A stretch of 64,000 nucleotides of DNA, taken from the NCBI GenBank assembly GCA_902796225.1, contig CADBOO010000030.1:37485-101484 (forward strand). The letters run 5' to 3'. The position numbers and the translations under genes are program-made. The notes under the pieces are model-generated. The model was not told the DNA's origin. It ran no database searches and saw only the letters and a list, made by a program, of their open reading frames with translations. This document shows, in pieces, positions 33,234-48,756 of the stretch; position 1 is the stretch's first letter, and every line of letters starts with the position of its first letter. Source of the DNA: an uncultured Ruminococcus sp. GTDB lineage: Bacteria; Bacillota; Clostridia; Oscillospirales; Acutalibacteraceae.

Positions 33234-34952
33234 TTATTCATCACCCTGCAGGGCGTCGTAGCCTTCTTCGCCGGTGCGGATCTTGACGACGTTCTCGACG
33301 TCATAGACAAAGATCTTGCCGTCGCCGATATGTCCGGTATACAGCGCCTTCTTCGCGGTCTCGATCACGTCGCGGACGGGGATCGCCGAGACGACCATCT
33401 CGACCTGGATCTTAGGCAGCAGGTTCGTTTCCATCGGAACGCCTCTGTAATACTCGGGCTTGCCCTTCTGAGAACCGTAGCCCATAACGTGAGTGACGGT
33501 CATGCCGGTGATGCCCAGCTTTGCCATCGCTCTCTTGAGCTTTTCAAACTTCGCTTCCTTGCAGATGATTTCGACCTTGGTGAATTTGGCGTCGCCGTCG
33601 AAGGACGGTACCGCCTTGACCTCGACAGCTTCGGCAACGGGAGTGCTGCCGGTGACGACAGTGACGTCCTCGCCGTAGGTCGAATAGTCCTCATGCGCTG
33701 ACATAAAGCCCGCATAAGCGGAGGGCAGACCGTGTTCGGTGATATCCAGACCCATGATCTCTTCCTCTGCGGACGCGCGCAGACCGATGGTCTTTTTGAT
33801 GATGACAAAGGTGATGATCATCATGATCGTCGCGTAAATTGCAACAGAGCCAAAGCCTAAGAACTGTAAGCCGAGCTGTTTGAAGTCGCCGGTGTAGAAC
33901 AGACCGGACAGTCCTGCGGGAGCGTCGGGGTTTGCCAGCAGACCGACTGCGATCGTACCCCAGATACCGTTTGCCATATGGACGCCGACCGCGCCGACGG
34001 GATCGTCGACATGCAGCTTCATATCGAGGACTTCGACCACGACCACTACGAGGATACCGGAAACGATACCGACAACGGTCGAACCGATGGCGTCGAGCGC
34101 ATCACAGCCTGCGGTGATACCGACCAGACCTGCCAGCGAAGCGTTCAGACACATCGAAACATCGGGCTTGCCGTTTTTGACCCATGTGAAGATCATCGTG
34201 GTGCAGGTCGCGACTGCGGGAGCGATCGTGGTGGTCAGGAAGATAGAAGCAAGTTCACTGGGAGTGGTTGCGGCAGCGCCGTTGAAGCCGTACCAGCCCA
34301 GCCACAGGATGAATACGCCCAGAGCGCCGATGACGATGTTGTGGCCGGGGAAGGCGTTGACCTTGACGACCTTACCGTTTTCGTCGCGCTCATATTTGCC
34401 GAGACGCGGGCCTAAGACAGCCGCGCCGATCAGCGCTGCGATACCGCCGACCATGTGGATCGCGCAGGAACCGGCGTAATCGTGGAAGCCGAGCTGACTC
34501 AGCCAGCCGCCGCCCCAGATCCAATGCGCTTCGATGGGGTAGATGAACAGCGAGATCACGCCGGAATAGATGCAGTAAGCGGAGAACTTTGTCCGTTCTG
34601 CCATCGCGCCGGAAACGATCGTCGCGGTCGTCGCGCAGAAAACGAGGTTGAATACGAATGTCGAAGCGGCTGTGAAATCGCCGTTTGCGGGACTTGCGAT
34701 AAACTCTTTGAAGTGAGCGAACAGATCCATATTCGGGATACCGATCAGTCCGAACAGGGTATCTTCGCCCATCATGATGGTGTATCCGAGCAGTGCGAAC
34801 ACTACCGTGCCGATACAGAAGTCCATCAGGTTCTTCATGATAATGTTGCCGGCGTTCTTCGCACGGGTAAAGCCTGCCTCTACCATCGCGAAGCCAGCCT
34901 GCATCCAGAATACCAATGCGGCTCCGATCAAAAACCAAAATTCTACTGTCAT
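33234..34952 (-). CDS. amtB: Ammonium channel fused to a PII signalling protein
   Basis: 572 residues. Positions 1-~395 are an Amt/AmtB channel with eleven membrane helices and the conserved pore histidines (CAIHMVGG and GVHMANG). After a linker of ~65 residues, positions ~460-572 are a complete PII domain: KVEIICKEAKFEKLKRAM, a T-loop KGKPEYYRG that keeps the tyrosine uridylylated in enteric PII, and the GDGKIFVYDVENVVKIRTGEEG signature. In most bacteria AmtB and GlnK are separate, adjacent genes and GlnK plugs the channel when nitrogen is plentiful. Here the plug is covalently attached. The leader carries an intrinsic terminator (see 34968-35051). Ribosome site GGAAGG. Confidence 0.95.
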   Translation of the reverse strand: MTVEFWFLIGAALVFWMQAGFAMVEAGFTRAKNAGNIIMKNLMDFCIGTVVFALLGYTIMMGEDTLFGLIGIPNMDLFAHFKEFIASPANGDFTAASTFVFNLVFCATTATIVSGAMAERTKFSAYCIYSGVISLFIYPIEAHWIWGGGWLSQLGFHDYAGSCAIHMVGGIAALIGAAVLGPRLGKYERDENGKVVKVNAFPGHNIVIGALGVFILWLGWYGFNGAAATTPSELASIFLTTTIAPAVATCTTMIFTWVKNGKPDVSMCLNASLAGLVGITAGCDALDAIGSTVVGIVSGILVVVVVEVLDMKLHVDDPVGAVGVHMANGIWGTIAVGLLANPDAPAGLSGLFYTGDFKQLGLQFLGFGSVAIYATIMMIITFVIIKKTIGLRASAEEEIMGLDITEHGLPSAYAGFMSAHEDYSTYGEDVTVVTGSTPVAEAVEVKAVPSFDGDAKFTKVEIICKEAKFEKLKRAMAKLGITGMTVTHVMGYGSQKGKPEYYRGVPMETNLLPKIQVEMVVSAIPVRDVIETAKKALYTGHIGDGKIFVYDVENVVKIRTGEEGYDALQGDE

Positions 34953-34967
34953 AAGATCACCTTCCTA

Positions 34968-35051
34968 TAAAAAAATAAGCGTACCCCGAAAGAATCAGAG
35001 TACGCCTTTGTACAGAGAGTTATACTACAGGACAATGCCTGTGAAAAACAA
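34968..35051 (-). promoter_or_regulatory. amtB promoter and leader attenuator
   Basis: Minus strand: a -10 (TAGTAT or TATAAC, 35027-35019) with a TTGTTT or TTTTCA -35, then A-A-A-G-G-C-G-T and at once an 11-bp stem (35005-34995 with 34989-34979), TTA and seven T. The ribosome site GGAAGG follows directly. A terminator between promoter and start codon implies regulated read-through. The design is shared with the leaders of glnIII and the glutamate synthase operon. Confidence 0.7.
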
Positions 35052-35054
35052 TGT

Positions 35055-36881
35055 TTATTCTACCGTGACGGATTTTGCGAGATTCCGCGGTTTGTCAACG
35101 TCGTTGCCCTTGTTGACCGAGGTGTAGTAAGCCAAAAGCTGCATCGGGACGGTCGCGACCATCGGCATCAGCACTTCGTAGCGCTTCGGGATGCGGATCA
35201 GATAATCCGCCGCATCCTTGTCGATATCTGCTTCTTCGTCGCAGATAACGATGGTTAATGCGCCCCTTGCCTTGACTTCTTTGATGTTGGATACGGTCTT
35301 TTCGATCAGGCGGTTCTGGGTAGCGACGGCGATCACGGGCATTCCGTCCTCGACCAGCGAGATGGTGCCGTGCTTTAATTCGCCCGCCGCATAGCTCTCG
35401 GAGTGGATATAGCTGATCTCCTTGAGCTTCAGAGAGCCTTCCATCGACAGCGCATAGTCCAGTCCGCGCCCGATGTATAAGAGGCTGTCGGCGGTGATCA
35501 GCTTGGTCGAGATGTACTGGCACTGATCGACCACCTTGCCGATCGTGTCCTCGATGACGCCGGGCATACGCGCCAGCTCGGCAGTCAGCCGCTGACACTT
35601 GCCCTCGTCGATCTTGCCCTTGGCGTAAGCCATTTCGAACGCCAGCAGGTAGATGACCGCAAGCTGTACCATGTACGCCTTGGTGGAGGCGACGGCGATC
35701 TCGGGACCCGCGTGGGTGTAGATGACCATGTCGGCTTCACGGGCGATCGAGCTGCCCTTGACGTTGACGATGGCGAGCGATTTCGCGGCGGTTTCCTTCA
35801 CCAGATTCAGCACCGCCTTGCTGTCGGCGGTCTCGCCGGACTGGCTGATGATGATCACGAGGTCGCCCTCGCCGATCAGCGGATCACGGTAACGGAACTC
35901 GGACGCGATATCGACCGTGACCGATACGCGCGCGTATTTTTCAATGATATACTTGCCGACCATACCCGCGTGCATCGCTGTGCCGCACGCGACGATGAAG
36001 ATGTTGTTCACCTTTTTCAGCGTTTCGGGTGTGATGCCGCACTCGGAAAGATCCGGCATGCCGTTCTCGATACGCGGGGTGATGGTGGTCTTGACCGCGG
36101 TGGGCTGTTCGTGGATCTCTTTGATCATGAAGTGCGGATAGCCGCCCTTTTCGGCGCTGTCCTCATCAAAGTCGGCGGTCTTCAGCTCTTTGTCGAGCAT
36201 CCGTCCGTGCAGGGTGCAGAAGCTCACCGAGCCGTTTTTCAGCACGGCGATCTCGTTATGCTCCAGCAGGTAATAGTCCTTTGTATATTTGATGATCGCG
36301 GGAACGTCGGAGGCGATGAACACCTCGCCCTTGCCCTGACCGACGATCAGCGGCGATTCGCGTCGGATCGCATAGACGGTCTCGGGCTTGTCGGCAAAGA
36401 TGATGCCCAGCGCGAACGAACCGCGGATTTCGTGCATCGTGCGGCGGATCGCTTTGATCGGATCGCCGTCATAGTAGAAGTCCAGGAGCTGTGCGACGAC
36501 CTCGGTATCGGTATCGCTCAAAAACTCGGTACGCTCATTATCGATCAAAAACTGCTTTAACTGCTTGTAGTTCTCGATGATGCCGTTGTGGACGATGGTG
36601 ACGCGTCGTCCCGAATGGGGATGCGAGTTAACATCCGACGGTTCGCCGTGGGTCGCCCAGCGGGTGTGACCGATGCCGGCATGACCCATGGGCTTGCCTT
36701 CCTTTTCCATTTTGGCGACCAGATCGGTCAGTCTGCCCTTGGTTTTGGCGACGGCGATCTTTCCGTCTTCAAAGACAGCGATACCGGCTGAGTCATAGCC
36801 TCTGTATTCGAGCTTGGTCAGCGCCGATACCAGTACGTCCGTACAGTCGCGCGGCCCGACATATCCTACGATTCCACACAT
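35055..36881 (-). CDS. glmS: Glutamine--fructose-6-phosphate aminotransferase
   Basis: 608 residues, full length. ATG 36881 gives the mature N-terminus CGIVGYVGP with catalytic Cys2 and follows AAAGGAG. N-terminal class II glutaminase (HTRWATHGEPSDVNSHPH, HNGIIENY), then two SIS isomerase domains (ACGTAMHAG, ISQSGETADS), ending KSVTVE. Makes glucosamine-6-phosphate for cell-wall synthesis, consuming glutamine, which fits its place between glutamine synthetase and the ammonium channel. Confidence 0.96.
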   Translation of the reverse strand: MCGIVGYVGPRDCTDVLVSALTKLEYRGYDSAGIAVFEDGKIAVAKTKGRLTDLVAKMEKEGKPMGHAGIGHTRWATHGEPSDVNSHPHSGRRVTIVHNGIIENYKQLKQFLIDNERTEFLSDTDTEVVAQLLDFYYDGDPIKAIRRTMHEIRGSFALGIIFADKPETVYAIRRESPLIVGQGKGEVFIASDVPAIIKYTKDYYLLEHNEIAVLKNGSVSFCTLHGRMLDKELKTADFDEDSAEKGGYPHFMIKEIHEQPTAVKTTITPRIENGMPDLSECGITPETLKKVNNIFIVACGTAMHAGMVGKYIIEKYARVSVTVDIASEFRYRDPLIGEGDLVIIISQSGETADSKAVLNLVKETAAKSLAIVNVKGSSIAREADMVIYTHAGPEIAVASTKAYMVQLAVIYLLAFEMAYAKGKIDEGKCQRLTAELARMPGVIEDTIGKVVDQCQYISTKLITADSLLYIGRGLDYALSMEGSLKLKEISYIHSESYAAGELKHGTISLVEDGMPVIAVATQNRLIEKTVSNIKEVKARGALTIVICDEEADIDKDAADYLIRIPKRYEVLMPMVATVPMQLLAYYTSVNKGNDVDKPRNLAKSVTVE

Positions 36882-37065
36882 AGGGAGTTCTCCTTTGTTA
36901 AATGAATTGACGCGGGCATCATGATTTGAAAACAAGTTTTTTGAATTGACGGAGTCATGAATTGCATTTCATGCATTGATGCAAATGATGACGAAGCCAA
37001 TTCATACCGCAGGCAAATCATGAGCCATCTCAATTCATTATACCTTATCTCACGCCGAAAAGCAA
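36882..37065 (-). promoter_or_regulatory. glmS promoter and repeat-rich leader
   Basis: Minus strand: TTGCTT (37065-37060, inside the end of the glutamine synthetase gene), 17-bp spacer, TATAAT (37042-37037). The ~150-nt leader holds the octamer ATGAATTG twice in one direction and twice inverted, able to form alternative long-range stems. The conserved core of a glmS ribozyme is not evident. Confidence 0.55.
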
Positions 37066-39138
37066 CTCCCCATATGTCGGCAGAGGCCACAATTCTGCAT
37101 CGACTACCGATTCTGCCGCGTCGGCATACTCGCGCAGGACGTCCATCTGGGGCAGGATCTCGTCACGGACGAAGTTCGCCTGATCGACGATGTCGTCGAT
37201 GTGGCTCAGATGATCCGCGAGGCGCTCGAGAATACCGGCGTTTGCGCTCATCTCGTCGCACGCGGCGGAGAGCTTCTCGATGTTGGCGGTCTCATAGGCG
37301 CAGCTGATATCTGCGGAGAGCGCCTTTTTCATGGAAACGTTTTTCAGCAGCTTGCCGAGATAGGTCTCGATCGCGGGGATGATCTGCTTTCCGGTCATAT
37401 CGACCATGGTCAGCGCCTCGATATTGACCTGTTTGACGTAGTTCTCGAGCATGATCTCCATACGGCTCTCAAGCTCCGCCTGGGTGAATACCTTATGCGA
37501 AGTCAGCATCGTGACGTTCTTTTCATCGAGCAGGTGCGGCATCGCGTCGGCGGTCGTTTTGAGGTTGGACAGCCCGCGCTTCTCGGCTTCTTCGATCCAC
37601 GCGTCGTCGTAGCCGTTGCCGTTGAAGATGATGCGCTTGTGCGCCTTGATGGTGTCGCGGATCAGATTATGAACGTCGTTTTCAAAGTCATCGGACTTTT
37701 CCAGAATATCCGCGAACTGCTTCAGGGATTCCGAAACAGCGGAGTTGAGCATCATGTTGCAGCAGGCGATAGAGTTAGAGGAGCCCAGCATACGGAACTC
37801 GAATTTGTTGCCGGTAAAGGCAAACGGTGAGGTACGGTTGCGGTCGGTGGTATCGCGTCTGAACTGCGGCAGGACGTCGACGCCCAGCTTCATGTACTTT
37901 TGCTTTGCACCGGCATATTCGTGTTCATTCTCGATCGCGTCGAGTACGGCAGACAGCTCGTCGCCGAGGAAGATGGAGATCACGGCGGGCGGCGCTTCAT
38001 TTGCGCCCAGACGGTGATCGTTGCCGGCTGTCGCGACGGACAGTCTTAATAAGTCCTGATACTCGTCGACCGCCTTGATGACCGCGACGAGGAACAGCAG
38101 GAACTGTACGTTTTCATAGGGAGTCTCGCCGGGCGTCAGCAGGTTGACGCCGGTATCGGTGCCGATCGACCAGTTGTTGTGCTTGCCGGAGCCGTTGACG
38201 CCCTTGAAAGGCTTTTCGTGCAGCAGGCAGACAAGTCCGTGACGCTCGGCAACCTTCTGCATGATCTCCATGGTAAGCTGGTTGTGGTCGGTTGCGACGT
38301 TGGTGGTGGAGTAGATCGGCGCCAGCTCGTGCTGTGCGGGAGCGACCTCGTTGTGCTGGGTCTTGGCGAGGATCCCGAGCTTCCACAACTCGTCGTTGAG
38401 GTCCTCCATATAGGCGAGGACGCGGGGCTTGATGGTGCCGAAATAGTGATCGTCCAGCTCCTGTCCCTTGGGCGGGCGTGCGCCGAACAGGGTTCGCCCG
38501 GTGTAGATCAGGTCTTTGCGCTTCGCATACAGCTCCTTGGGAACAAGGAAGTATTCCTGTTCGGGACCGACAGAGGTGACGACCTTCTTGACGTCTTCGT
38601 TGCCGAACAGCTTCAGGATACGCAGCGCCTGTGTATTCAGCGCCTGCATCGACCTGAGCAGCGGTGTTTTCTTATCCAGCGCGTCGGAACTGTAGGATGC
38701 GAACGCGGTGGGGATGCACAGGGTCTTTCCTTTAATAAACGCATAGGATGTGGGATCCCAGGCGGTATAGCCGCGGGCTTCGAAGGTCGCGCGCAAGCCG
38801 CCGGAGGGGAAGGAGGATGCGTCGGGCTCGCCCTTGATCAGCTCCTTGCCGGAGAACTCCATGATGACCCTGCCGTCGGGCGAGGGAGAGATGAAGCTGT
38901 CGTGTTTTTCGGCGGTGATGCCGGTCAGCGGCTGGAACCAGTGGGTGTAATGGGTCGCGCCCTTTTCCACCGCCCAGTCCTTCATGGCGACTGCGACCGC
39001 GTTGGCGACCGTGATGCTCAGGCTCTCGCCTTCATCGATGGTACGGCGAAGCTTTTCATAGATCTTGCCGTCAAGGCGTTCTTTCATCACCTTGTCATCG
39101 AATACCAAACTTCCGAAATAATCTGCTACATTAGCCAT
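37045..39138 (-). CDS. glnN: Glutamine synthetase type III
   Basis: 697 residues, the length of GSIII. ATG 39138 lies eight bases after AAGGAG. GSIII signatures: [38 protein letters not shown] (metal-binding Glu pair), [34 protein letters not shown] and [21 protein letters not shown]. All metal- and glutamate-binding motifs appear intact, so this should be the working ammonium-assimilating enzyme of the region. Transcribed divergently from the glutamate synthase operon from a consensus promoter with leader terminator. Confidence 0.95.
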
Positions 39139-39160
39139 AATCTTGACTCCTTCCGACAAT

Positions 39161-39243
39161 AAAAAATGGCGCCCTGAGCGATTTGCTCAAGACGCCTTTG
39201 TCTTTACGAGTTGCATTATACACGCCTGATTTGCATTTGTCAA
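39161..39243 (-). promoter_or_regulatory. Glutamine synthetase III promoter and leader attenuator
   Basis: Minus strand: perfect TTGACA (39243-39238), 17-bp spacer, perfect TATAAT (39220-39215). About ten bases after the predicted transcript start comes A-A-A-G-G-C-G-T, the left arm of a 12-bp stem (39196-39185 with 39179-39168), then A and six T, and the ribosome site. A consensus promoter blocked by an immediate terminator points to antitermination as the real control step. Confidence 0.75.
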
Positions 39244-39305
39244 GCCTGAAATTCAAGTTTTTTGCAACTTTTTTTGAAAATCCTGCAAAACCGTCAAAAA
39301 TATGA

Positions 39306-39391
39306 TTGACAAATCCCCCGCGCGATGCTATAATAATCGGGTAGTGAGCAAAGGCGTTCATTCAGGAAACACCCTGAGTGACGCCTTTTTT
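39306..39391 (+). promoter_or_regulatory. Glutamate synthase operon promoter and leader attenuator
   Basis: Perfect TTGACA (39306-39311), 17-bp spacer, perfect TATAAT (39329-39334). Then A-A-A-G-G-C-G-T from 39350 and a long stem (39351-39366 with 39373-39387, one bulge) with loop AAACAC, followed by six T. The -10 to A-A-A-G-G-C-G distance (15 nt) equals that of the divergent glutamine synthetase III leader. Confidence 0.75.
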
Positions 39392-39395
39392 CTAT

Positions 39396-39536
39396 GCCTT
39401 CCCCCCGGGGAAGGAGAACCGCGAAAGCGGCAGATGAGGCGAAAACGCTTTTGATATGGCAGTTTACGGGATGGAGTTTAACGCTTCCGTTTTGTCCGCC
39501 TCATGATATTCGGCGCCTTCCTCTCAAGGGGAAGGC
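39396..39536. repeat. Miniature inverted-repeat-like element in the glutamate synthase leader
   Basis: Ends are related CCTTCC...GGAAGG hairpins (39396-39413 and 39515-39536). Inside, ATGAGGCG (39434-39441) is matched by CGCCTCAT (39497-39504). Such GGGGAAGG/GATGAGG elements are, from memory, common intergenic repeats in this bacterial group. It lies between the attenuator and the first start codon and lengthens the leader. Confidence 0.55.
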
Positions 39537-39555
39537 TTGGGAAAGGAAGAAAACT

Positions 39556-40641
39556 ATGAGAGAAGGACAATTCCGAAATCCGTCGGGCTGCGCGATCGCG
39601 GCTGAGATATCCAGAGAAGGACGGCGCTTTTCGGCAGAGAAGATCATCGAGAGCATGATCCCCATGCACGACCGTTCGAACGGTCTGGGCGGCGGATTTG
39701 CGGGCTACGGCATCTATCCGAAGTATAAGGACTTTTATGCATTCCATCTGTTCTATGACCACAGACACATCAAAAAAGAGGTTGAAGAATACCTGAAAGA
39801 ACGGTATGAGATCGTCCTGAGCGAAGAGATCCCGACCCGCAAGATCCCCGAGATCACCGACGAGCCGATCATCTGGCGCTATTTTCTCAATCCGCTGAAA
39901 TCGGTTTTGCGCTCGGCGCAGCTGGATGAAAAAGAGTTCACCGCGCGCGTGGTCATGCATATCAATACCAAGATGGACGGCGCATATGTCTTTTCGTCCG
40001 GCAAGAACATGGGCGCGTTCAAGGCTGTCGGCTTTCCCGAGGACGTCGGACGCTTCTATATGCTCGATGAATATGCGGGCTATGCGTGGACGTCTCACGG
40101 ACGCTATCCGACGAATACCCCCGGATGGTGGGGCGGCTCTCACCCGTTCGGACTGCTCGACTATACCGTAGTTCATAACGGCGAGATCAGCTCCTACGAC
40201 GCGAACCGCCGCTTTATCGAGATGTTCGGCTACAAATGCACGCTGCAGACCGATACCGAGGTTATGGCGTATATCGCGGACTTTCTCCTGCGCCGCAAGG
40301 GACTGACCCCGAAAGAAATGGCAGAGATCATCGCGGCTCCGTTCTGGAGCACGATCGCCAAGAAGGACGAAGTCAACGCCGAGCGTCTGACCTACTTCCG
40401 CACCATCTACAGCTCTCTGTTGATGACGGGACCGTTTTCCATCGTGGTCGGCTATACCGGCGGTCTGATGGCGCTGAACGATAGATTGAAGCTCCGGTCG
40501 ATGGTCGCGGCGGAGAAGGACGATATGGTCTATATCGCGTCCGAAGAGACCGCGATCCGCATCATGTCGCCCGAGATTGACCGCATCTGGTCGCCCGCCG
40601 GCGGCGAGCCTGTTATTGTTGAGGTGATGCCGCATGATTAG
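39556..40641 (+). CDS. Glutamate synthase, glutaminase (class II GATase) subunit
   Basis: 361 residues, start ATG 39556 after AAAGGAAGA. A stand-alone class II glutamine amidotransferase: conserved Cys12 in NPSGCAIA (an 11-residue propeptide must be removed to free it), AWTSHGRYPTNTPGWWGG, VVHNGEISSYDANR, TLQTDTEV. In ordinary GltB this domain is the N-terminus of a 1500-residue chain; here glutamate synthase is split into separate genes as in archaea and some clostridia. Supplies ammonia from glutamine to the FMN subunit encoded next. Confidence 0.9.
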   Translation: MREGQFRNPSGCAIAAEISREGRRFSAEKIIESMIPMHDRSNGLGGGFAGYGIYPKYKDFYAFHLFYDHRHIKKEVEEYLKERYEIVLSEEIPTRKIPEITDEPIIWRYFLNPLKSVLRSAQLDEKEFTARVVMHINTKMDGAYVFSSGKNMGAFKAVGFPEDVGRFYMLDEYAGYAWTSHGRYPTNTPGWWGGSHPFGLLDYTVVHNGEISSYDANRRFIEMFGYKCTLQTDTEVMAYIADFLLRRKGLTPKEMAEIIAAPFWSTIAKKDEVNAERLTYFRTIYSSLLMTGPFSIVVGYTGGLMALNDRLKLRSMVAAEKDDMVYIASEETAIRIMSPEIDRIWSPAGGEPVIVEVMPHD

Positions 40642-40751
40642 GGTGTACGGATTGCGAAGTAAGATTTTTTGTCAGGATGTGCAAACAATCGGCTTGCATA
40701 CTGACGTAAGGATGCCGATTATTGGGCATCATGACGGAATAATATTCAAGC

Positions 40752-40785
40752 AAGGCGTGCGCCGCGAATCGTGCGGCAGCGCCTT
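40752..40785 (+). promoter_or_regulatory. Intercistronic hairpin starting AAGGCGT
   Basis: Outer stem AAGGCG/CGCCTT (40752-40757 with 40780-40785) and inner stem GCCGC/GCGGC. It begins with the same AAGGCGT as the three leader attenuators but has no T run. It lies 20 bp before the next start codon. Confidence 0.45.
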
Positions 40786-40806
40786 AGTAAAGGACGGTGT
40801 TTTGTA

Positions 40807-42312
40807 ATGCCGATCAATTTCATATTACCGGAATTTGAAGTCGAGCGAAACGACTATCGCTGTATCCGCTGCCGCGTGTGCGAACGCCAGTGTGCGAACG
40901 GCGTTCATCGCTATGATCCCGACGGCGACGTCATGCTCAGCGACGAAACAAAATGCGTCGACTGTCAGCGCTGTGTCTGTCTGTGCCCGACCCGCGCGCT
41001 GAAGATCAAAAAGAACGACGCGGCGCTGAGAACCAACGCGAACTGGAAGCAGAATACGATCCTGGAGATCTATAAGCAGGCGAACACCGGCGGCGTGCTG
41101 CTCAGCTCGATGGGCAATCCCGAACCGTTCCCGGTGTACTGGGACAAGATCCTGATCAACGCCTCCCAGGTCACGAATCCCTCCATCGATCCCCTGCGCG
41201 AGCCGATGGAAACACGCGTGTTCCTCGGCAAAAAGCCGCACGATATCGAACGCGACGCAAACGGTGAGATCAACACCGAACTGCCGCCGCAGATCGAGCT
41301 GGAGCTGCCGATCATGTTCTCGGCGATGAGCTACGGATCCATCAGCTACAACGCGCACAAGAGTCTTGCTACCGCCGCCGAGGCGCTGGGCATCTGCTAC
41401 AACACCGGTGAGGGCGGTCTGCACGAGGACTTCTATCAATACGGCAAGAACACCATCGTACAGGTCGCGTCCGGACGCTTCGGCGTTTACAAGGACTACC
41501 TCGAGGCGGGCGCCGCGATCGAGATCAAGATGGGTCAGGGCGCAAAGCCCGGCATCGGCGGTCATTTGCCCGGCACAAAGGTCGGCGCGGACGTCAGCAA
41601 GACGCGTATGATCCCCGAGGGGTCTGACGCAATCTCTCCCGCGCCTCACCATGATATCTATAGTATAGAAGATCTGCGTCAGCTTGTTTTCTCCCTGAAA
41701 GAAGCGACAGAGTATCAAAAGCCCGTCATCGTCAAGGTCGCAGCAGTCCATAATATCGCCGCGATCGCCTCCGGTATCGCGCGTTCGGGCGCTGATATCA
41801 TCGCGATCGACGGTTTCAGAGGCGGCACGGGCGCGGCTCCCACACGCATCCGCGATAACGTCGGTATCCCGATCGAGTTGGCGTTGGCTGCGGTCGATAA
41901 ACGCCTCCGTGACGAAGGTATCCGACAGAATGTGTCGCTGGTGGTCGGCGGCTCGGTACGCTCGGCGTCTGACGTCGTCAAGGCGATCGCCCTCGGTGCG
42001 GACGCGTGCTATATCGCGACCTCTGCATTATTGGCGCTCGGCTGTCACCTCTGCCGCACCTGCCAAAGCGGCAAGTGCAACTGGGGCATCGCGACACAGG
42101 ATCCCGAGCTGGTCAAACGGCTGAATCCCGAGACCGGCAAGGAACGGCTGGTCAACCTCCTGACCGCGTGGAAACACGAGATCAAGGAGATGATGGGATT
42201 GATGGGAATCAATTCCATCGAAGCGCTGCGCGGTAACCGATTAATGCTGCGCGGAGTAGGTCTGAATGAAAAGGAGCTTGAGATTCTCGGTATCTCACAC
42301 GCGGGCGAATGA
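40807..42312 (+). CDS. Glutamate synthase, FMN-binding catalytic subunit with N-terminal ferredoxin domain
   Basis: 501 residues. N-terminal 2[4Fe-4S] domain (CIRCRVCERQC and CVDCQRCVCLCP), then the alpha/beta barrel of glutamate synthase: FSAMSYGSISYNAHKSLATAA, NTGEGGLHEDFY, MGQGAKPGIGGHLPG, DGFRGGTGAAPTRIRDNVGIP, and the cluster motif CHLCRTCQSGKCNWGIATQDPEL. Transfers ammonia onto 2-oxoglutarate using ferredoxin- or NADPH-derived electrons. Overlaps the next gene by 4 bp. Confidence 0.93.
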   Translation: MPINFILPEFEVERNDYRCIRCRVCERQCANGVHRYDPDGDVMLSDETKCVDCQRCVCLCPTRALKIKKNDAALRTNANWKQNTILEIYKQANTGGVLLSSMGNPEPFPVYWDKILINASQVTNPSIDPLREPMETRVFLGKKPHDIERDANGEINTELPPQIELELPIMFSAMSYGSISYNAHKSLATAAEALGICYNTGEGGLHEDFYQYGKNTIVQVASGRFGVYKDYLEAGAAIEIKMGQGAKPGIGGHLPGTKVGADVSKTRMIPEGSDAISPAPHHDIYSIEDLRQLVFSLKEATEYQKPVIVKVAAVHNIAAIASGIARSGADIIAIDGFRGGTGAAPTRIRDNVGIPIELALAAVDKRLRDEGIRQNVSLVVGGSVRSASDVVKAIALGADACYIATSALLALGCHLCRTCQSGKCNWGIATQDPELVKRLNPETGKERLVNLLTAWKHEIKEMMGLMGINSIEALRGNRLMLRGVGLNEKELEILGISHAGE

Positions 42313-42743
42313 AACGAGTAACTGTACATGAAGAATGGTGCCTTGGGTGCCATCTCTGCGAATATAACTGTGCGTTTGCCAATTCCGGTCTTGCGGATAT
42401 GGTTAAGGCGCTGAAGAATCAGAAGATCACTCCCCGCATCCATGTCGAGGAGGACGGCAGGATCCACTATGCCGTGTCCTGCCGCCACTGTGAGGATCCG
42501 ATCTGTATCAAAGGCTGTATCTCCGGCGCGCTGCAAAAAGGCGCAGACGGCGTCGTGACCATCGACCATGACAAATGCGTCGGGTGTCTGAGCTGTATGC
42601 TGCTGTGTCCTTACGGCTGTATCACGACGGACGAAAACGAAACCGTCCTCAAGTGTGAGCTGTGCGTCAAGAACGGCGATATCCCCGCGTGTGTGCAGGG
42701 ATGTCCGAACCGCGCGATCGTTTTTGAGGAGGTGCAGACATGA
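42309..42743 (+). CDS. 4Fe-4S ferredoxin subunit
   Basis: 144-residue iron-sulphur protein of the HycB/DmsB-like type with four cysteine groups: CLGCHLCEYNC, CRHCEDPICIKGC, CVGCLSCMLLCPYGC and CELC...CVQGCP, room for four [4Fe-4S] clusters. It is coupled by ATGA overlaps on both sides to the FMN subunit and the flavin reductase, so it probably wires electrons between them. Confidence 0.9.
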   Translation: MKRVTVHEEWCLGCHLCEYNCAFANSGLADMVKALKNQKITPRIHVEEDGRIHYAVSCRHCEDPICIKGCISGALQKGADGVVTIDHDKCVGCLSCMLLCPYGCITTDENETVLKCELCVKNGDIPACVQGCPNRAIVFEEVQT

Positions 42744-43978
42744 AATACGTTATCATCGGCAACGGTCCCGCCGCAGTATCCTGTATCGACGGTATCCGTT
42801 CCGTCGATCCCGACGGCAGTATCACTGTGATTTCAAAAGAGGATCACCCTGCCTACTTCCGCCCGCTGATCTCCTATTATCTCGAGGGCAAGAGCAAGGC
42901 GGAGAACATCTATTGCCGGCGCGCCGATTTTTATGAAAGCAGCAACTGCGGCGTCATCCATTCGGAGGCAGTCGCGATCGATACAGACAATCGGTCGGTC
43001 ATGCTGAAAAACGGGGAGTCCATCCCCTATGACAGGCTGTGTATCTGTACAGGTTCATCGCCGTTCGTGCCCCCGATGAAAGGGCTGGAAACGGTCGAAA
43101 ACAAATATACGTTCCTGACTGTCGACGATTCTTTTGCAATCGAGAAAGCGATCACAAAAGACAGCCGTGTGCTGATCATCGGCGCAGGTCTGATCGGACT
43201 CAAATGCGCCGAAGGACTGCGCGATCGCGTACAGTCTGTCACGGTCTGCGATCTCGCGCCGCGCGTGCTGTCATCTATCCTCGACGACGAATGCGCCGCT
43301 ATCGTGCAAAAGCATCTCGAAAACTGCGGGATCGGCTTCTCTCTCGGCAACACCGCCGATCGTTTCGACGGGAATACCGCTATGATGAAGGACGGTTCCG
43401 AGATCGGATTCGACGTTCTGGTTCTGGCGCTCGGCGTTCGCCCGAATATCGGCTTCTTCAAGGAAGCGGGCGGCGCATGCGGCAGAGCGATCATCGTTGA
43501 TAATGAAATGAAAACGTCCGTCGACGGAATCTTCGCCGCGGGCGACTGCGTCGAGCAGTACGATATCTCCTTCGGCGATAAGCGCATCATGGCGCTGCTT
43601 CCTAACGCCAACCTCGGCGGCTATACGGCGGGTGTGAATATGGCGGGCGGCAGCGCAGAATTCGACAATGCCGTCCCGATGAATTCCATCGGTTTCTGGG
43701 GACTGCACATGATGACCGCCGGCACCTACGCGAACGATGAAAACGCGCAGATGATCGAAGAAAAAGGCGAGAAATCCATCAAACGCTTCTTTATCAAAAA
43801 CAACAGGCTGGTCGGATTCATCATCATCGGCGACGTGAAAAGCGCCGGAATCTATACGAATCTCATCCGAACACAGGCGGATATCTCTGCTTATGATCCG
43901 GATGCTCTCACAAAAAATGCAACTTTATTGCCATTCGGCGAAAATTACCGTAGAAAAACGCTGGGAGGTGTGGTATAA
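42740..43978 (+). CDS. FAD-dependent NAD(P)H oxidoreductase of the glutamate synthase operon
   Basis: 412 residues of the pyridine-nucleotide disulphide/rubredoxin reductase family. FAD-binding IGNGPAAVSCIDGIR at the N-terminus, NAD(P) Rossmann VLIIGAGLIGLKCAEGL in the middle, and GIFAAGDCVEQYD near the end. No redox-active CxxxxC disulphide. Takes the place of the GltD small subunit, feeding electrons from NAD(P)H through the ferredoxin to the FMN subunit (inference from operon order). Stop and next start overlap. Confidence 0.88.
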   Translation: MKYVIIGNGPAAVSCIDGIRSVDPDGSITVISKEDHPAYFRPLISYYLEGKSKAENIYCRRADFYESSNCGVIHSEAVAIDTDNRSVMLKNGESIPYDRLCICTGSSPFVPPMKGLETVENKYTFLTVDDSFAIEKAITKDSRVLIIGAGLIGLKCAEGLRDRVQSVTVCDLAPRVLSSILDDECAAIVQKHLENCGIGFSLGNTADRFDGNTAMMKDGSEIGFDVLVLALGVRPNIGFFKEAGGACGRAIIVDNEMKTSVDGIFAAGDCVEQYDISFGDKRIMALLPNANLGGYTAGVNMAGGSAEFDNAVPMNSIGFWGLHMMTAGTYANDENAQMIEEKGEKSIKRFFIKNNRLVGFIIIGDVKSAGIYTNLIRTQADISAYDPDALTKNATLLPFGENYRRKTLGGVV

Positions 43979-44700
43979 TGATGTCGTTGGACGCTAAAGC
44001 GTTAAATCACAAAAGTCTGAATGAACAGCTCAGAGATGCAAATGACAACATCAAGCTCAGCTCCGTTCTCGGTCAGCGATTCATCGCGGCGGGGATGTCC
44101 GGCAAAACGATCGATATTTACGGCACCCCCGGCAACGCCCTCGGCGCCTACCTCAACGGAGCCGTCATCAACGTCTACGGCAACGCGCAGGACGCGGTCG
44201 GCGATACGATGAATTCCGGTCAGATCAACGTCTACGGCAATATCGGCGACGCGCCGGGCTACGCGATGCGCGGCGGCAAGATCTATGTCAAGGGGAATGC
44301 CGGCTACCGCGCGGGCATCCATATGAAAGCCTACAAAGAACATATCCCCGTGCTGGTGATCGGCGGCAAAGCCGGTTCCTTCCTCGGCGAGTATCAGGCG
44401 GGCGGCATCATCATCGTGCTGGGACTCTCAAATGATGAAAAAGATATCGTCGCCAACTTCCCCTGCACCGGTATGCACGGCGGCAGGATGTACCTGCGTT
44501 CAAAATGCGAGGGCATCCACTTCCCGCATCAGGTAACAGCGGCGTCCGCGGATGCGGAGGATATTGACGAGATCCGCGGCTATATCAGTGAATTCTGCGA
44601 TCTGTTCGGCTATGACGCCGACGAGATCATGGGCGGTGATTTCACCGTCATCACCCCAAGCAGCAAGAATCCTTATCAACAAATGTATGTTGCGAATTGA
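43978..44700 (+). CDS. Glutamate synthase GXGXG-domain subunit
   Basis: 240 residues built mainly of the right-handed beta-helix found at the C-terminus of GltB: successive VYGNAQDAVGDTMNSG, VYGNIGDAPGYAMRGG, VKGNAGYRAGIHMK and IGGKAGSFLGEYQAGG turns. Completes the split glutamate synthase; this domain packs between the glutaminase and FMN barrels. ATG 43978 overlaps the preceding stop and follows GGGAGGTG. Confidence 0.9.
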   Translation: MMSLDAKALNHKSLNEQLRDANDNIKLSSVLGQRFIAAGMSGKTIDIYGTPGNALGAYLNGAVINVYGNAQDAVGDTMNSGQINVYGNIGDAPGYAMRGGKIYVKGNAGYRAGIHMKAYKEHIPVLVIGGKAGSFLGEYQAGGIIIVLGLSNDEKDIVANFPCTGMHGGRMYLRSKCEGIHFPHQVTAASADAEDIDEIRGYISEFCDLFGYDADEIMGGDFTVITPSSKNPYQQMYVAN

Positions 44701-44802: not shown

Positions 44803-46014
44803 ATGACCAACGAACAACTGGAGATCATGCAATATATCGAAGAGGAGGACGTCAAGTTCATCCGACTCGCTTTCTGCGATATCTACGGCGTGCAGAAGAA
44901 CATTTCAATCCAGCGCGGCGAGTTGCAGCGCGCCTTTGAAAGCGGTTATCCGATCGACGCGTCTTATATCGCAGGCTTCGGCGGCGACTACGGCGAGGAT
45001 ATCTACCTTCATCCCGAGGCGAGTACCATCACGGTCCTGCCGTGGCGGCCGGAACACGGTAAGGTGGTGCGTATGTTCTGTACGCTGAGCTTTTCCGACG
45101 GGATCCCCGTAGCGGGCGATACGCGCGCGATCCTGAAACAGGCGGTCAAATATGCAAAGGAAAAGGGATATACCTTCCACTTCAAGAGCGAATTGCAGTT
45201 CTATCTTTTCAAGACCGACGAAAACGGCGAAGGCACCCGCATCCCTTACGACAACGCGGGCTACATGGATATCGCGCCCCTCGACAAGGGTGAGAACGTG
45301 CGCCGTGAGATCTGTTTGACGCTGGAGCAGATGGGCATCACGCCCGAAAGCTCCCACCATGAAGCGGGCCCCGGTCAGAACGAGATCGACTTCAAGTACG
45401 CCGATCCGCTGACCTCTGCCGACAATACCGTGACGTTTCTGTCCGTCGTCCGCACGATCGCCGCGCGCAACGGATTATTCGCCGACTTCTCTCCGAAGCC
45501 GTTCTCCGACAAATCCGGCTCTGCGCTGCATATCACAATGTCCGTCCACAGCAAAAGCGGCGAACAGGTCACCGACTATGCCATCGCCGGTATGCTCGAT
45601 CATATCGCCGCGATGACGGTGTTCCTCAATCCGACCGACAGCTCCTACCAGCGGTTCGGCCGCCTCAAAGCGCCGAAATTCATCACATGGTCGTCGAAGA
45701 ACCGCGCCCAGCTGATCGCGGCAACGCTGACAAAAAACGGCAATCCGTGCCTGCAGCTGCGTTCTCCCGATCCCGAAGCGAATCCGTATCTCGCTTTTGC
45801 GCTGATGATCTTTGCGGCGGTAGACGGCATCGAAAGCCGTACGCAGCTGCCGCCCTCGACCGATCAGGATATCATCTTCATGACAGGCAGCGAACAGAAG
45901 AACTATATGCTGCTGCCGAATTCCGTCGACAAAGCGCGTAACGCCGCGGCGGATAACAGCTTTATCAAAGATCATCTGCCGGGCAGCGTGATCAAGGCGT
46001 ACTGCAATCGGTAA
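44803..46014 (+). CDS. Type I glutamine synthetase paralogue with altered active site
   Basis: 403 residues, ~40 shorter than typical GSI. The fold is clear: N-terminal beta-grasp (RLAFCDIYGVQKNISIQRGEL), SHHEAGPGQNEIDF, SGSALHITMSV, NRAQLI, RSPDPEANPYLAF. Compared with enteric GlnA, several key residues differ: the second Glu of GPEPE is Gln132 (SELQF, n1 metal); the flap RLVPGYEAP is RFGRLKAP, shorter and with Lys289 in place of the Glu that deprotonates ammonium; the second Arg of NRSxxIR is Ala306; and the Glu of IEVR is Gln318 (n2 metal). It is probably not a normal glutamine synthetase. Its place between the glutamate synthase operon and an ANTAR regulator suggests a sensing role. A specialised gamma-glutamyl ligase is the alternative. 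Confidence 0.75.
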   Translation: MTNEQLEIMQYIEEEDVKFIRLAFCDIYGVQKNISIQRGELQRAFESGYPIDASYIAGFGGDYGEDIYLHPEASTITVLPWRPEHGKVVRMFCTLSFSDGIPVAGDTRAILKQAVKYAKEKGYTFHFKSELQFYLFKTDENGEGTRIPYDNAGYMDIAPLDKGENVRREICLTLEQMGITPESSHHEAGPGQNEIDFKYADPLTSADNTVTFLSVVRTIAARNGLFADFSPKPFSDKSGSALHITMSVHSKSGEQVTDYAIAGMLDHIAAMTVFLNPTDSSYQRFGRLKAPKFITWSSKNRAQLIAATLTKNGNPCLQLRSPDPEANPYLAFALMIFAAVDGIESRTQLPPSTDQDIIFMTGSEQKNYMLLPNSVDKARNAAADNSFIKDHLPGSVIKAYCNR

Positions 46015-46170: not shown

Positions 46171-46752
46171 ATGTCATTGTCAGAGCGCGTTTATCGTGCG
46201 CTGATCGTATCAAAAACCGAAAAGTTTACGACCGAATTCGGCTCCCTCCTCTCTGCGGAACGATTTCTCTCCGATCACGCAACCAACGCCGGAGCTGCTC
46301 GCCGCGGGGTTCTCGAAAAAACCTACGACTTCGTCGTCGTCAACGCACCGCTGACGGATGAGTTCGGTACACGGCTGTGTATGGACATCAGTCTTTCGGC
46401 GGGAACCATAGCGGTGATCTTCGCGCCGTCGGAAGTGTATGACGAGATCGTCCACAAGGCGGCTTCCAACGGCGTATTCGTGATCAAAAAGCCCGCCTCG
46501 CAGCAGACGGTCATCCAGTCGCTGTCGCTGTTGATCTCAGCGCGTGAACGCCTGCGATCCGTCGAGAAAAAGGCCGGCAAGGCACAGAATAAACTCGAAG
46601 AGATCCGCGTCGTCAACCGCGCGAAATGGCTTCTCATCGACAACGAGGACATGAACGAGAATGACGCGCACAAGGCCATCGAAAAAGCCGCCATGGATGC
46701 AGGGATCACCAAAATGCAGGCGGCACAGATGATCATTGAGAAATACAGGTGA
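46171..46752 (+). CDS. ANTAR-domain RNA-binding regulator with pseudo-receiver (NitR-like)
   Basis: 193 residues. The N-terminal ~120 form a receiver fold (RALIVSKTEKF, YDFVVVNAPLTDEFG, IFAPSEVYDEI, FVIKKP), but the phosphoacceptor Asp is Asn58, so it cannot be phosphorylated normally. A coiled coil (~125-145) leads into an ANTAR domain (VNRAKWLLIDNEDMNENDAHKAIEKAAMDAG...AAQMIIEKY), the three-helix RNA-binding antiterminator fold of AmiR/NasR/EutV. From memory, an ANTAR protein called NitR lies next to glnA in solventogenic clostridia and is tied to nitrogen control. It is inferred to act on the leader terminators of amtB, glnN and the glutamate synthase operon. Ribosome site GGGAGGGG. Flanked by two copies of one repeat element. 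Confidence 0.88.
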   Translation: MSLSERVYRALIVSKTEKFTTEFGSLLSAERFLSDHATNAGAARRGVLEKTYDFVVVNAPLTDEFGTRLCMDISLSAGTIAVIFAPSEVYDEIVHKAASNGVFVIKKPASQQTVIQSLSLLISARERLRSVEKKAGKAQNKLEEIRVVNRAKWLLIDNEDMNENDAHKAIEKAAMDAGITKMQAAQMIIEKYR

Positions 46753-46896: not shown

Positions 46897-48489
46897 ATGA
46901 CGAAATACATATTTGTAACAGGCGGCGTAGTATCCGGCCTCGGTAAAGGCATCACAGCGGCGTCGCTCGGACGCTTGCTCAAGGCACGCGGTCTGAAGGT
47001 CGCGTCCCAGAAGCTCGACCCCTACATCAACGTCGATCCCGGCACGATGAGTCCGTATCAGCACGGCGAGGTCTATGTCACCGAGGACGGCGCCGAGACC
47101 GACCTTGACCTCGGTCATTACGAACGGTTCATCGACGAGGATCTGAACCAGTTCTCCAACCTCACCACCGGCAAGGTCTACTCGAATGTGTTATCAAAGG
47201 AACGCAAGGGCGAATATCTCGGCAAGACGGTGCAGGTCATCCCGCACATTACCGACGAGATCAAGCGTTTCATCTACTCGGTCGGCAAAAAGACCGACGC
47301 CGACGTCGTTATCACCGAGATCGGCGGTACCATCGGCGACATCGAATCCCAGCCGTTCATCGAGGCGATCCGTCAGGTCGGTCATGAGGTCGGCAAAGAC
47401 AACCGCCTGTATATCCATGTCACTCTGGTTCCGTATCTGAAAGCCTCCGGCGAGCATAAGTCAAAGCCGACCCAGCACTCCGTCAAGGAACTGCAGGGGC
47501 TTGGCGTTTCGCCCGATATCATCATCCTCAGAACCGACGAGCCGATCACCGACAGCGGTATCTTCGATAAGATCGCCGGCTTCTGCAATGTCTGGCCGGA
47601 CTGCGTCATCGAAAACCTCACCCTGCCGATCCTGTATGAAGCGCCGCTTATGCTCGAGAAAGCGCACATCTCCGACATTGTCTGCCGCGACCTGAACCTG
47701 AAATCCCACAAGCCCGATCTCTCAGATTGGGAGCATATGGTCGAGCGCATCAAAAGCCGTGAACGCCACGTAAAGATCGGCTTGGTCGGCAAGTACGTCG
47801 AGCTGCACGACGCTTACCTGTCTGTAGCGGAAGCCCTGCATCACGCGGGATATTACCAGAATTCTTTTGTCGATATCGACTGGATCGACAGCGAAACAAT
47901 CACCCCAGAAACAGCAGACGAGATTCTCTCGAAGGTGGACGGTATCATCGTCCCCGGAGGCTTCGGTCAGCGGGGGATCGAGGGCATGATCCTCGCCGCT
48001 CAATACGCCCGCGAGCATAACATCCCGTATTTCGGTATCTGCCTCGGAATGCAGATCGCCGTGATCGAATACGCCCGCAACGTCGCCGGTATCGCAAACG
48101 CAAATTCCGGCGAGTTCGATAAGAGCGCCGCAAAGGTCATCGACTTCATGCCCGACCAGAACGACGAGATCGACAAGGGCGGCACGCTGCGATTAGGCGC
48201 ATATCCCTGTGTGATCCAAAACGGCACGGCGATGGAAAAAGCCTACGGCACAAATCAAATCAGCGAACGTCACCGTCATCGCTACGAGTTCAATAACGAT
48301 TACCGCGACGTATTGCAGAAAGCGGGACTGACCCTCTCGGGCTTCTCGCCCGACGGACGACTGGTCGAGACAGTTGAACTGACTGACCGCCCGTTCTACA
48401 TCGGCGTCCAGTATCACCCCGAGTTCAAATCCCGCCCCAACAAACCTCATCCGCTTTTCAGCGCTTTTATCAAAGCGTCACTCTCATAA
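46897..48489 (+). CDS. pyrG: CTP synthase
   Basis: 530 residues, full length. Synthetase domain starts [23 protein letters not shown] with [23 protein letters not shown], and a class I glutaminase domain carries the nucleophile Cys in [16 protein letters not shown] and the HPE triad segment (YHPEF). Aminates UTP to CTP with glutamine. Another glutamine consumer in the nitrogen island. Confidence 0.97.
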
Positions 48490-48494
48490 TAACA

Positions 48495-48523
48495 GAAAGC
48501 TCCCGATCATCCCGGGAGCTTTC
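48495..48523 (+). terminator. Terminator of pyrG
   Basis: An 11-bp stem (48495-48505 with 48513-48523) with a GCTTT tail, six bases after the stop. From there to 48756 only short hairpins are seen (for example 48537-48556) and no supported gene. Confidence 0.75.
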
Positions 48524-48756
48524 GCTTTACAAAACGGACGTCCTTTTGGGTGTCCTATCTTTATGTAATGACGGAGATAAGGGGCGCCGGGGGAGTCCGA
48601 CGACAGATCTGCGCTTGTCTTCAAAACGCTCCGCCCCGATACCGTTCAGGATAAAGCGGCGATTGTCGGAAGCGGAGCTTTTTTGCCGAAGAAGAATTCG
48701 TTGATTATTCACAAAATCTTAATGTGAAATTCTATGCTCTCGCGGCTCAAAACGGA

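Follow-up and report, generated by a model that had tools for sequence, protein, structure and literature searches.

Three nitrogen-related transcription units in a 64,000-nucleotide stretch of contig CADBOO010000030.1, from an uncultured Ruminococcus sp., begin with leaders that probably belong to a nitrogen regulon controlled by antitermination, in which an ANTAR protein reads a single six-base hairpin loop (hexaloop) in each RNA. This whole stretch is hereafter called the window, and the units are amtB (ammonium transporter), glnN (glutamine synthetase III) and a split glutamate synthase operon, here gltS. Mutually exclusive folds, their conservation, the identity of the target genes and co-occurrence with ANTAR genes are evident from sequence comparison. 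An earlier note on this DNA had proposed regulated read-through into these genes tied to an ANTAR regulator; conservation, covariation, targets and co-occurrence speak for that proposal, while two of its particulars, a promoter at amtB and a fourth hairpin at 40752, did not stand. The parts of the leaders and their genes are listed below in window positions, with hairpin stems in base pairs (bp).

39306..39334, + strand: promoter of the gltS (glutamate synthase) operon, TTGACA-17-TATAAT, 12/12 consensus matches
39343..39362, + strand: predicted gltS operon antiterminator hairpin, P2 type, 7 bp, hexaloop AAAGGC at 39350-39355, -5.7 kcal/mol
39350..39391, + strand: intrinsic terminator of the gltS leader, overlapping the hairpin, -25.0 kcal/mol
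39556..44700, + strand: split glutamate synthase operon (GATase, FMN, 4Fe-4S, pyridine nucleotide reductase and GXGXG proteins), predicted target
39215..39243, - strand: glnN promoter, TTGACA-17-TATAAT, 12/12 consensus matches
39189..39204, - strand: predicted glnN antiterminator hairpin, 5 bp, hexaloop AAAGGC, -4.3 kcal/mol
39161..39196, - strand: glnN terminator with T run, overlapping the hairpin, -23.1 kcal/mol
37045..39138, - strand: glnN, glutamine synthetase III, predicted target
35000..35013, - strand: predicted amtB antiterminator hairpin, 4 bp, hexaloop AAAGGC, -3.0 kcal/mol, intercistronic, 3' of glmS
34968..35007, - strand: amtB terminator with T run, overlapping the hairpin, -19.7 kcal/mol
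33234..34952, - strand: amtB-PII fusion, ammonium transporter, predicted target
35055..36881, - strand: glmS-like gene, located between glnN and amtB and encoding SIS and class II GATase domains

The target RNAs of EutV, NasR and AmiR are described in parts of PMC3369931 as dual hexaloop hairpins, P1 and P2, that overlap a terminator. At all three window leaders an intrinsic terminator comes after the string AAAGGCGT, with fold energies from -19.7 to -25 kcal/mol, and at amtB and glnN a ribosome site lies directly 3' of the terminator, both as the earlier note had reported. Its promoters hold in perfect form for glnN and gltS; no -10 box was found for the amtB leader, which is intercistronic. 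The constant string had been taken for the entry site of the terminator and proved to be something else: AAAGGC is the exact six-base loop (A1...G4) of a small hairpin that competes with the terminator in each leader. With the first 22-23 nucleotides (nt) folded alone, these hairpins are AGUGAGC-AAAGGC-GUUCAUU in gltS, AAGAC-AAAGGC-GUCUU in glnN and GUAC-AAAGGC-GUAC in amtB. The terminator's 5' arm includes the loop bases GGC and the 3' arm of this hairpin, and because these bases are common to both structures the two are mutually exclusive. In general form, a small hairpin with the loop A-A-N-G-R-Y closed by C-G can form within the first 15-22 nt of the transcript. Two features of ANTAR targets were thus found, an A1/G4 hexaloop on a short stem and a 3' arm common to an intrinsic terminator, and the predicted anatomy of the leader hairpin matches that of an ANTAR antiterminator's P2 half.

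What distinguishes the three leaders is the stem of 4-7 bp that closes on AAAGGC. Ordinary AAAGGCG...CGCCT terminators elsewhere in the genome have 0-2 upstream-arm pairs; the exception among the ordinary AAAGGCG sites is one pattern match lacking a T run (L011), with 5 pairs. The window contains 19 copies of AAAGGCG where 9.3 would be expected, and AAAGGCGT alone was rejected as a signature, being common by chance and present in ordinary terminators. The supposed fourth AAGGCGT hairpin at 40752 was rejected as an element: the element scan did not return it, its loop misfits AANGRY and it has no T run.

The pairing exceeds chance in several counts. A census of 79 glnN loci and the window, in which any loop sequence was allowed and a stem of at least 5 bp and overlap with a terminator arm were required, returned 70 distinct hexaloop hairpins; A1 and G4 were present in 55, and 54 of those 55 were closed by C-G. 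Among terminators opening with AANGRYG, 63/130 had a stem of at least 5 bp, compared with 12% when arms were permuted, and such a stem was seen in 0/73 terminators of six control loop classes. Fewer than four pairs were formed in 43/130 of the AANGRYG terminators, some being the opposite strand of the same terminators and others looking unrelated. Where places were picked only by a -10 box, AANGRYG and a terminator, 48/57 had a stem of at least 4 bp and the observed pairing was reached by 0/2000 arm permutations; in a second set of 138 places without a detected terminator, 23 had at least 4 bp, likewise beyond permutation. An alignment of 39 leaders, its rows chosen with at least 4 bp, had 88% of cells paired (69.6% in shuffles; 0/500 as high) and a covariation score of 0.668 (0.291 in shuffles; 0/500 as high), and its further pair types were matched by 5/500 shuffles. 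Sliding the partners lowered pairing to 35-51%. Among 141 elements chosen for having both folds, the common arm bases covary with both of their partners, as G-C-G, A-U-A, U-A-U and C-G-C. The hairpin pairing covaries across relatives, and the pairing itself is also seen at places that were not selected for it.

The genes behind the elements are largely those of ammonia assimilation. Of the 146 distinct elements counted in the loci fetched, 54 stand before glnN, 36 + 1 before glutamate synthase, 14 before amtB, five before glnA, five before PurF-like genes (three of them Pfam-tested) and 21 before others; a further five gave no frame, and another five, labelled 'ANTAR', read the glnN terminator in antisense. 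Pfam names among the others tested were citrate synthase, a circularly permuted ATP-grasp protein, glutamate dehydrogenase (two), CarA, AsnA and AsnB. At amtB the loop lies 17-181 nt past the end of a glnN or glmS match in 11/14 loci and, in the window, 49 nt after glmS, where the element is by its position intercistronic. A model of the -10 box plus hairpin, called R1, matched 69/150 genomes of the family at E <=0.05, in 116 places; 15 of these places were without annotation, and 86 of the 101 annotated ones precede ammonia/glutamine (nitrogen) genes, leaving 15 with other genes. A recheck at the exact places, covering 30 loci first chosen by nearness and the 27 class-level ones described next, left the totals unchanged; G043 was counted as glnN, as was G055 (428 nt on), though a short AsnA-like frame is closer. 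At class level, 27 of the 55 R1 places outside the family were looked at: 19 precede nitrogen or glutamine genes by BLAST, six further ones were named by Pfam (GATase_3, SAICAR synthetase in two cases, adenylosuccinate synthetase, GatC and ATP synthase A), one had no gene found, and one was read as glyceraldehyde-3-phosphate dehydrogenase and is without a good terminator.

Four elements were found in the genome of the window, at amtB, glnN, gltS and a purF-like gene (G000:C129:4518). This last and four other purF-type elements (L030 14125, L031 14282, L033 12523 and L047 11010) have the loop AAAGAC or AAGGAC, and a purF-type element from another genus (L139) has AAAGGC; the change of loop is a possible variant of specificity or strength. 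An element stands 5' of an ATP synthase A chain gene by Pfam (L306 1522), and another lies 412 nt 5' of an ATP synthase A-like frame whose N-terminus was read by eye (L213, reverse strand, ~1520).

ANTAR genes accompany the element. The domain model PF03861 was matched in 91/150 family genomes, comprising 60/69 R1-positive and 31/81 R1-negative genomes (Fisher p=6e-10, uncorrected for kinship and genome size), and at a strict R1 cut-off of E <=0.001 an ANTAR gene was present in 30/33. Among 196 genomes at class level, the corresponding counts were 32/37 R1-positive and 68/159 R1-negative (p=1e-6, likewise uncorrected); these tables were tallied by eye, with genomes lacking a printed match counted as negative. 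An element lies within 20 kb of the ANTAR gene in 29/52 genomes having an element at a nitrogen gene, and in ANTAR-positive family genomes 83/91 examined matches precede nitrogen genes. Covariation in relatives and co-occurrence with ANTAR genes had been named in the earlier note as checks on its proposal, and both came out in its favour. The regulator gene that it had placed nearby was also confirmed; it lies at 46171-46752, and no other PF03861 match was found in its genome (89.7% complete). This gene stands in the following surroundings.

44803..46014, + strand: glnA-like glutamine synthetase gene, directly 5' of the ANTAR gene, best NCBIfam model TIGR00653, below cut-off
46171..46752, + strand: ANTAR protein gene, 193 amino acids, receiver-like domain and C-terminal ANTAR domain
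46897..48489, + strand: CTP synthase gene (pyrG), possibly the last gene of the operon, with terminator candidates at 48499-48519 and 48536-48555

The ANTAR domain of this protein scored above the Pfam cut-off and the receiver match below it. At the phospho-accepting aspartate position the window protein and 43/58 collected ANTAR proteins have Asn, and nine have Asp; at class level Asp was found in 2/29 proteins from R1-positive compared with 25/67 from R1-negative genomes. The window protein thus lacks the phospho-accepting Asp of a EutV-type response regulator. Its structure was modelled with a predicted local distance difference test score (pLDDT) of 92.7. A fold search placed Rv1626 first by E-value, and among the matches listed RNA-bound EutV (6ww6) had the best query-normalised template modelling (TM) score, 0.74; free EutV and AmiR followed, AmiR (1qo0_E, TM 0.64) being the third protein after Rv1626 and EutV. 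EutV residues were mapped by alignment; the numbering is shifted by two, a shift inferred from residue names in parts of PMC8934654. On this numbering Lys149 and Glu160, which contact G4, and the Met172 plug are kept, and Lys143 and Lys147 are replaced by Arg. His was found at the position of EutV Tyr164 in 29/29 ANTAR proteins from R1-positive genomes outside the family, compared with 36/67 from R1-negative ones, the remainder of which carry Tyr (24) or Phe (7); one of the 68 R1-negative genomes (L385) gave no ANTAR open reading frame. An earlier sample of 20 + 20 (His in 20/20 compared with 4/20), whose negatives were biased to high Pfam scores, is superseded by this full set. An exclusive link of the element to His-type ANTAR proteins was weakened by two R1-negative genomes (L328 and L332, not in the His list) having single, terminator-overlapping hexaloops 5' of glnA.

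On the + strand, gltS, glnA, the ANTAR gene and pyrG may form one operon. One internal terminator candidate was returned (40587-40608, score 18), inside the first coding frame, and the next candidates follow pyrG, at 48499 (score 18.5) and 48536 (score 21). Inside the operon there is also a promoter-like site, at 43951 (10/12), which is a possible internal start. Elsewhere an element (L324 9386, + strand) lies directly 5' of an ANTAR gene, suggesting direct autoregulation. The PII domain fused to the ammonium transporter (33234-34952) is a possible nitrogen sensor next to the regulator's predicted targets, and the glutamate synthase of 39556-44700 is divided into five proteins, one of them an extra 4Fe-4S subunit and another a pyridine nucleotide reductase. 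A palindrome-flanked stretch (39396-39540) lies past the gltS terminator, ahead of the first gene. A 141-bp repeat had been described here; the 145-bp stretch tested occurs at full length only in its own place and has seven partial matches elsewhere in the genome.

ANTAR attenuators in the portions of PMC3369931 and PMC8934654 consulted use P1 together with P2, 5-12 nt apart in eut, and some A..G hexaloop hairpin of ANTAR type was found within 45 nt upstream of 12/146 elements compared with 4.5 in shuffles. Both observations would suit a conventional dual-hexaloop target whose true start lies further upstream and whose P1 was missed, an explanation judged quite unlikely. Nine of the 12 upstream hairpins fall within promoter sequence, in elements whose -10 box is 13-15 nt from the loop, and where the absence of a -10 box leaves room for P1 an upstream hairpin was found in only 3/35 elements, five of the 35 being antisense reads. 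The -10 box (5-6/6 matches) ends 12-17 nt 5' of the loop, mostly 15, in 44/65 non-redundant elements, and lies at that distance in 4/30 terminators without the stem. From its end to the hairpin arm there are 7-11 nt in 94/111 elements with a -10 box, and therefore the arm begins about at the expected transcription start; in the gltS and glnN leaders the -10 box is 15 nt from the loop, which leaves no room for P1. No conserved P1 was found among the 146 elements; the 16 stretches surrounding ANTAR genes that were scanned as a positive control gave no dual motif, so that the P1 scan is without a control of the dual type. A P1 and P2 pair spaced 5-12 nt apart was accordingly not found in the elements. 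Ten tandem pairs lie 51-121 nt apart, well beyond the eut linker. Such pairs (L065 3748/3799, L073 9844/9931, L123 1649/1733 and seven more) look like two attenuators in series, and the tandem copies precede glnN, gdhA and amtB, among others.

Another RNA-binding regulator or a small ligand might read the hairpin, the ANTAR gene merely sharing its lineage and nitrogen island; the co-occurrence ignores kinship, and some element-bearing genomes have no detected ANTAR gene. This is unlikely, given that the A1/G4 hexaloop is the published ANTAR signature, that element and ANTAR gene are so often within 20 kb of each other, and that His is invariant at the Tyr164 position in the element-bearing ANTAR genomes outside the family; moreover, 22 nt is little for a riboswitch, and the window gave no Rfam match at gathering score. 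The leaders could also owe their form to the product being the short terminated RNA itself, a decoy sequestering ANTAR protein like EutX/rli55, with attenuation secondary. Terminated hexaloop transcripts of ~50 nt are indeed predicted at the promoter-borne targets, and EutX, in the part of PMC8934654 that treats it, holds an extra single hexaloop; most examined elements, on the other hand, are 5' of and in line with a nitrogen gene, and the intercistronic (amtB) and tandem copies make sense as attenuators, which renders a decoy role very unlikely. Least probable of all are plain promoter-proximal terminators, unregulated or with partial read-through, in which the upstream complementarity is incidental. 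Ordinary AAAGGCG...CGCCT terminators do exist in the same genome, but these are without the upstream arm, and the pairing of the elements covaries, exceeds all permutations and is found mostly at one gene class.

Against antitermination through a single hexaloop itself, several points must be counted. EutV loses induction without P1 (PMC3369931). The glnN and amtB hairpins, folded alone, are equalled by 12/200 shuffles; because single-hairpin energies are not above those of many shuffles, the case rests on the cross-genome comparison. In that comparison pairs with both sides changed (4) are not beyond shuffles (125/500 as high, 39 leaders), and R1 was built partly from the genomes searched. 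Six EutV contacts are changed in the window protein, namely Arg142 (Ile), Tyr164 (His), Arg168 (Glu), Asn173 (Asp), Arg175 (Gly) and Arg177 (Thr). Nine R1-positive family genomes have no detected ANTAR gene, with nitrogen genes at 3/10 of their examined matches, two of these three being in metagenome-assembled genomes 75% and 81% complete and one in a genome 96% complete; at class level the same holds for 5/37 R1-positive genomes, including the one with the best score of all (G440). Conversely, 31 ANTAR-positive family genomes have no R1 match. The co-occurrence takes no account of relatedness, and several of the ANTAR-negative genomes are small.

For a regulon of single-hexaloop leaders the following mechanism may be proposed. 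In ammonia-rich cells the terminator would win, as the fold energies suggest termination by default, and transcription would end within ~50 nt. When nitrogen is short, a NitR-like ANTAR dimer would grip the hexaloop as it leaves the polymerase, hold the hairpin and block the terminator, and RNA polymerase would then read into the ammonia-assimilation genes. The recruiting role of P1 might be replaced by the position of the hexaloop at the very 5' end of the RNA, or by tighter binding in this ANTAR subfamily. Since the ANTAR gene lies 3' of the attenuator in the apparent gltS-glnA operon, the circuit would include positive feedback. The signal is probably a protein partner and not a kinase, because the receiver-like domain lacks the phospho-Asp; by analogy with AmiC for AmiR, glutamine synthetase or PII could be that partner. 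A broader form of the proposal, which is plausible and correspondingly tentative, would extend to the whole class (taken to be Clostridia): a single-hexaloop nitrogen regulon with the hexaloop at the transcript start and no need of a recruitment hairpin, read by an ANTAR subfamily that has His for the G4-stacking Tyr, has no phospho-Asp and senses nitrogen via glutamine synthetase or PII. If single-hexaloop antitermination is borne out, it would also provide the nitrogen control circuit for a sizeable set of gut and rumen bacteria, most of them uncultured.

A grip on one hairpin would challenge the current picture of how ANTAR proteins prevent premature termination. Search models with two stem-loops (PMC3369931; part of PMC8164766) would tend to miss one-hairpin elements, and no report of single-hexaloop attenuators was found in searches of an open library of papers, which did not take in the original NitR paper; nothing useful was found there on the regulation of glutamine synthetase III in Ruminococcus. 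Bioinformatic and experimental study of single hexaloops is asked for in a passage of PMC8934654. The natural set of attenuators described here, for which covariation, target genes and a candidate cognate protein are all at hand, opens the matter to direct test. The possible distinct attenuator class of the earlier note is not an unrelated class; it does differ from two-hairpin targets, and as compared by sequence the one-hairpin attenuator is a new, P1-less variant of the known ANTAR kind, the NitR leaders standing outside this comparison.

Clostridium saccharobutylicum has the gene order glnA-nitR-gltAB, which resembles the window in having an ANTAR gene beside glnA and the glutamate synthase genes. 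NitR is cited in part of PMC6316151 as an antiterminator inducing glutamine synthetase and glutamate synthase (GS/GOGAT) on nitrogen limitation, and the nitR antiterminator is also mentioned in an excerpt of PMC4676874. The direction of induction agrees with that proposed here; as far as those excerpts go, one gene cluster is concerned there, in contrast to the wider target set and many families here. AmiR of Pseudomonas aeruginosa is likewise an ANTAR antiterminator with a pseudo-receiver, which is controlled by the protein partner AmiC (PMC8934654, in part); the amiE leader is described as dual-hexaloop in the text seen of PMC3369931, whereas a single hexaloop is found here. The dual-hexaloop target itself, as given in that same text, has in common with the present elements the A1/G4 hexaloop, the short stem, the 3' arm within a terminator and nitrogen-related targets. 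The elements differ in having one hexaloop, placed at the transcription start or between genes, with a loop that is mostly A-A-N-G-R-Y and a C-G closing pair. An EutV dimer contacts one hexaloop at a time, and isolated P1 and P2 are bound with similar affinity, according to the sections of PMC8934654 that deal with binding.

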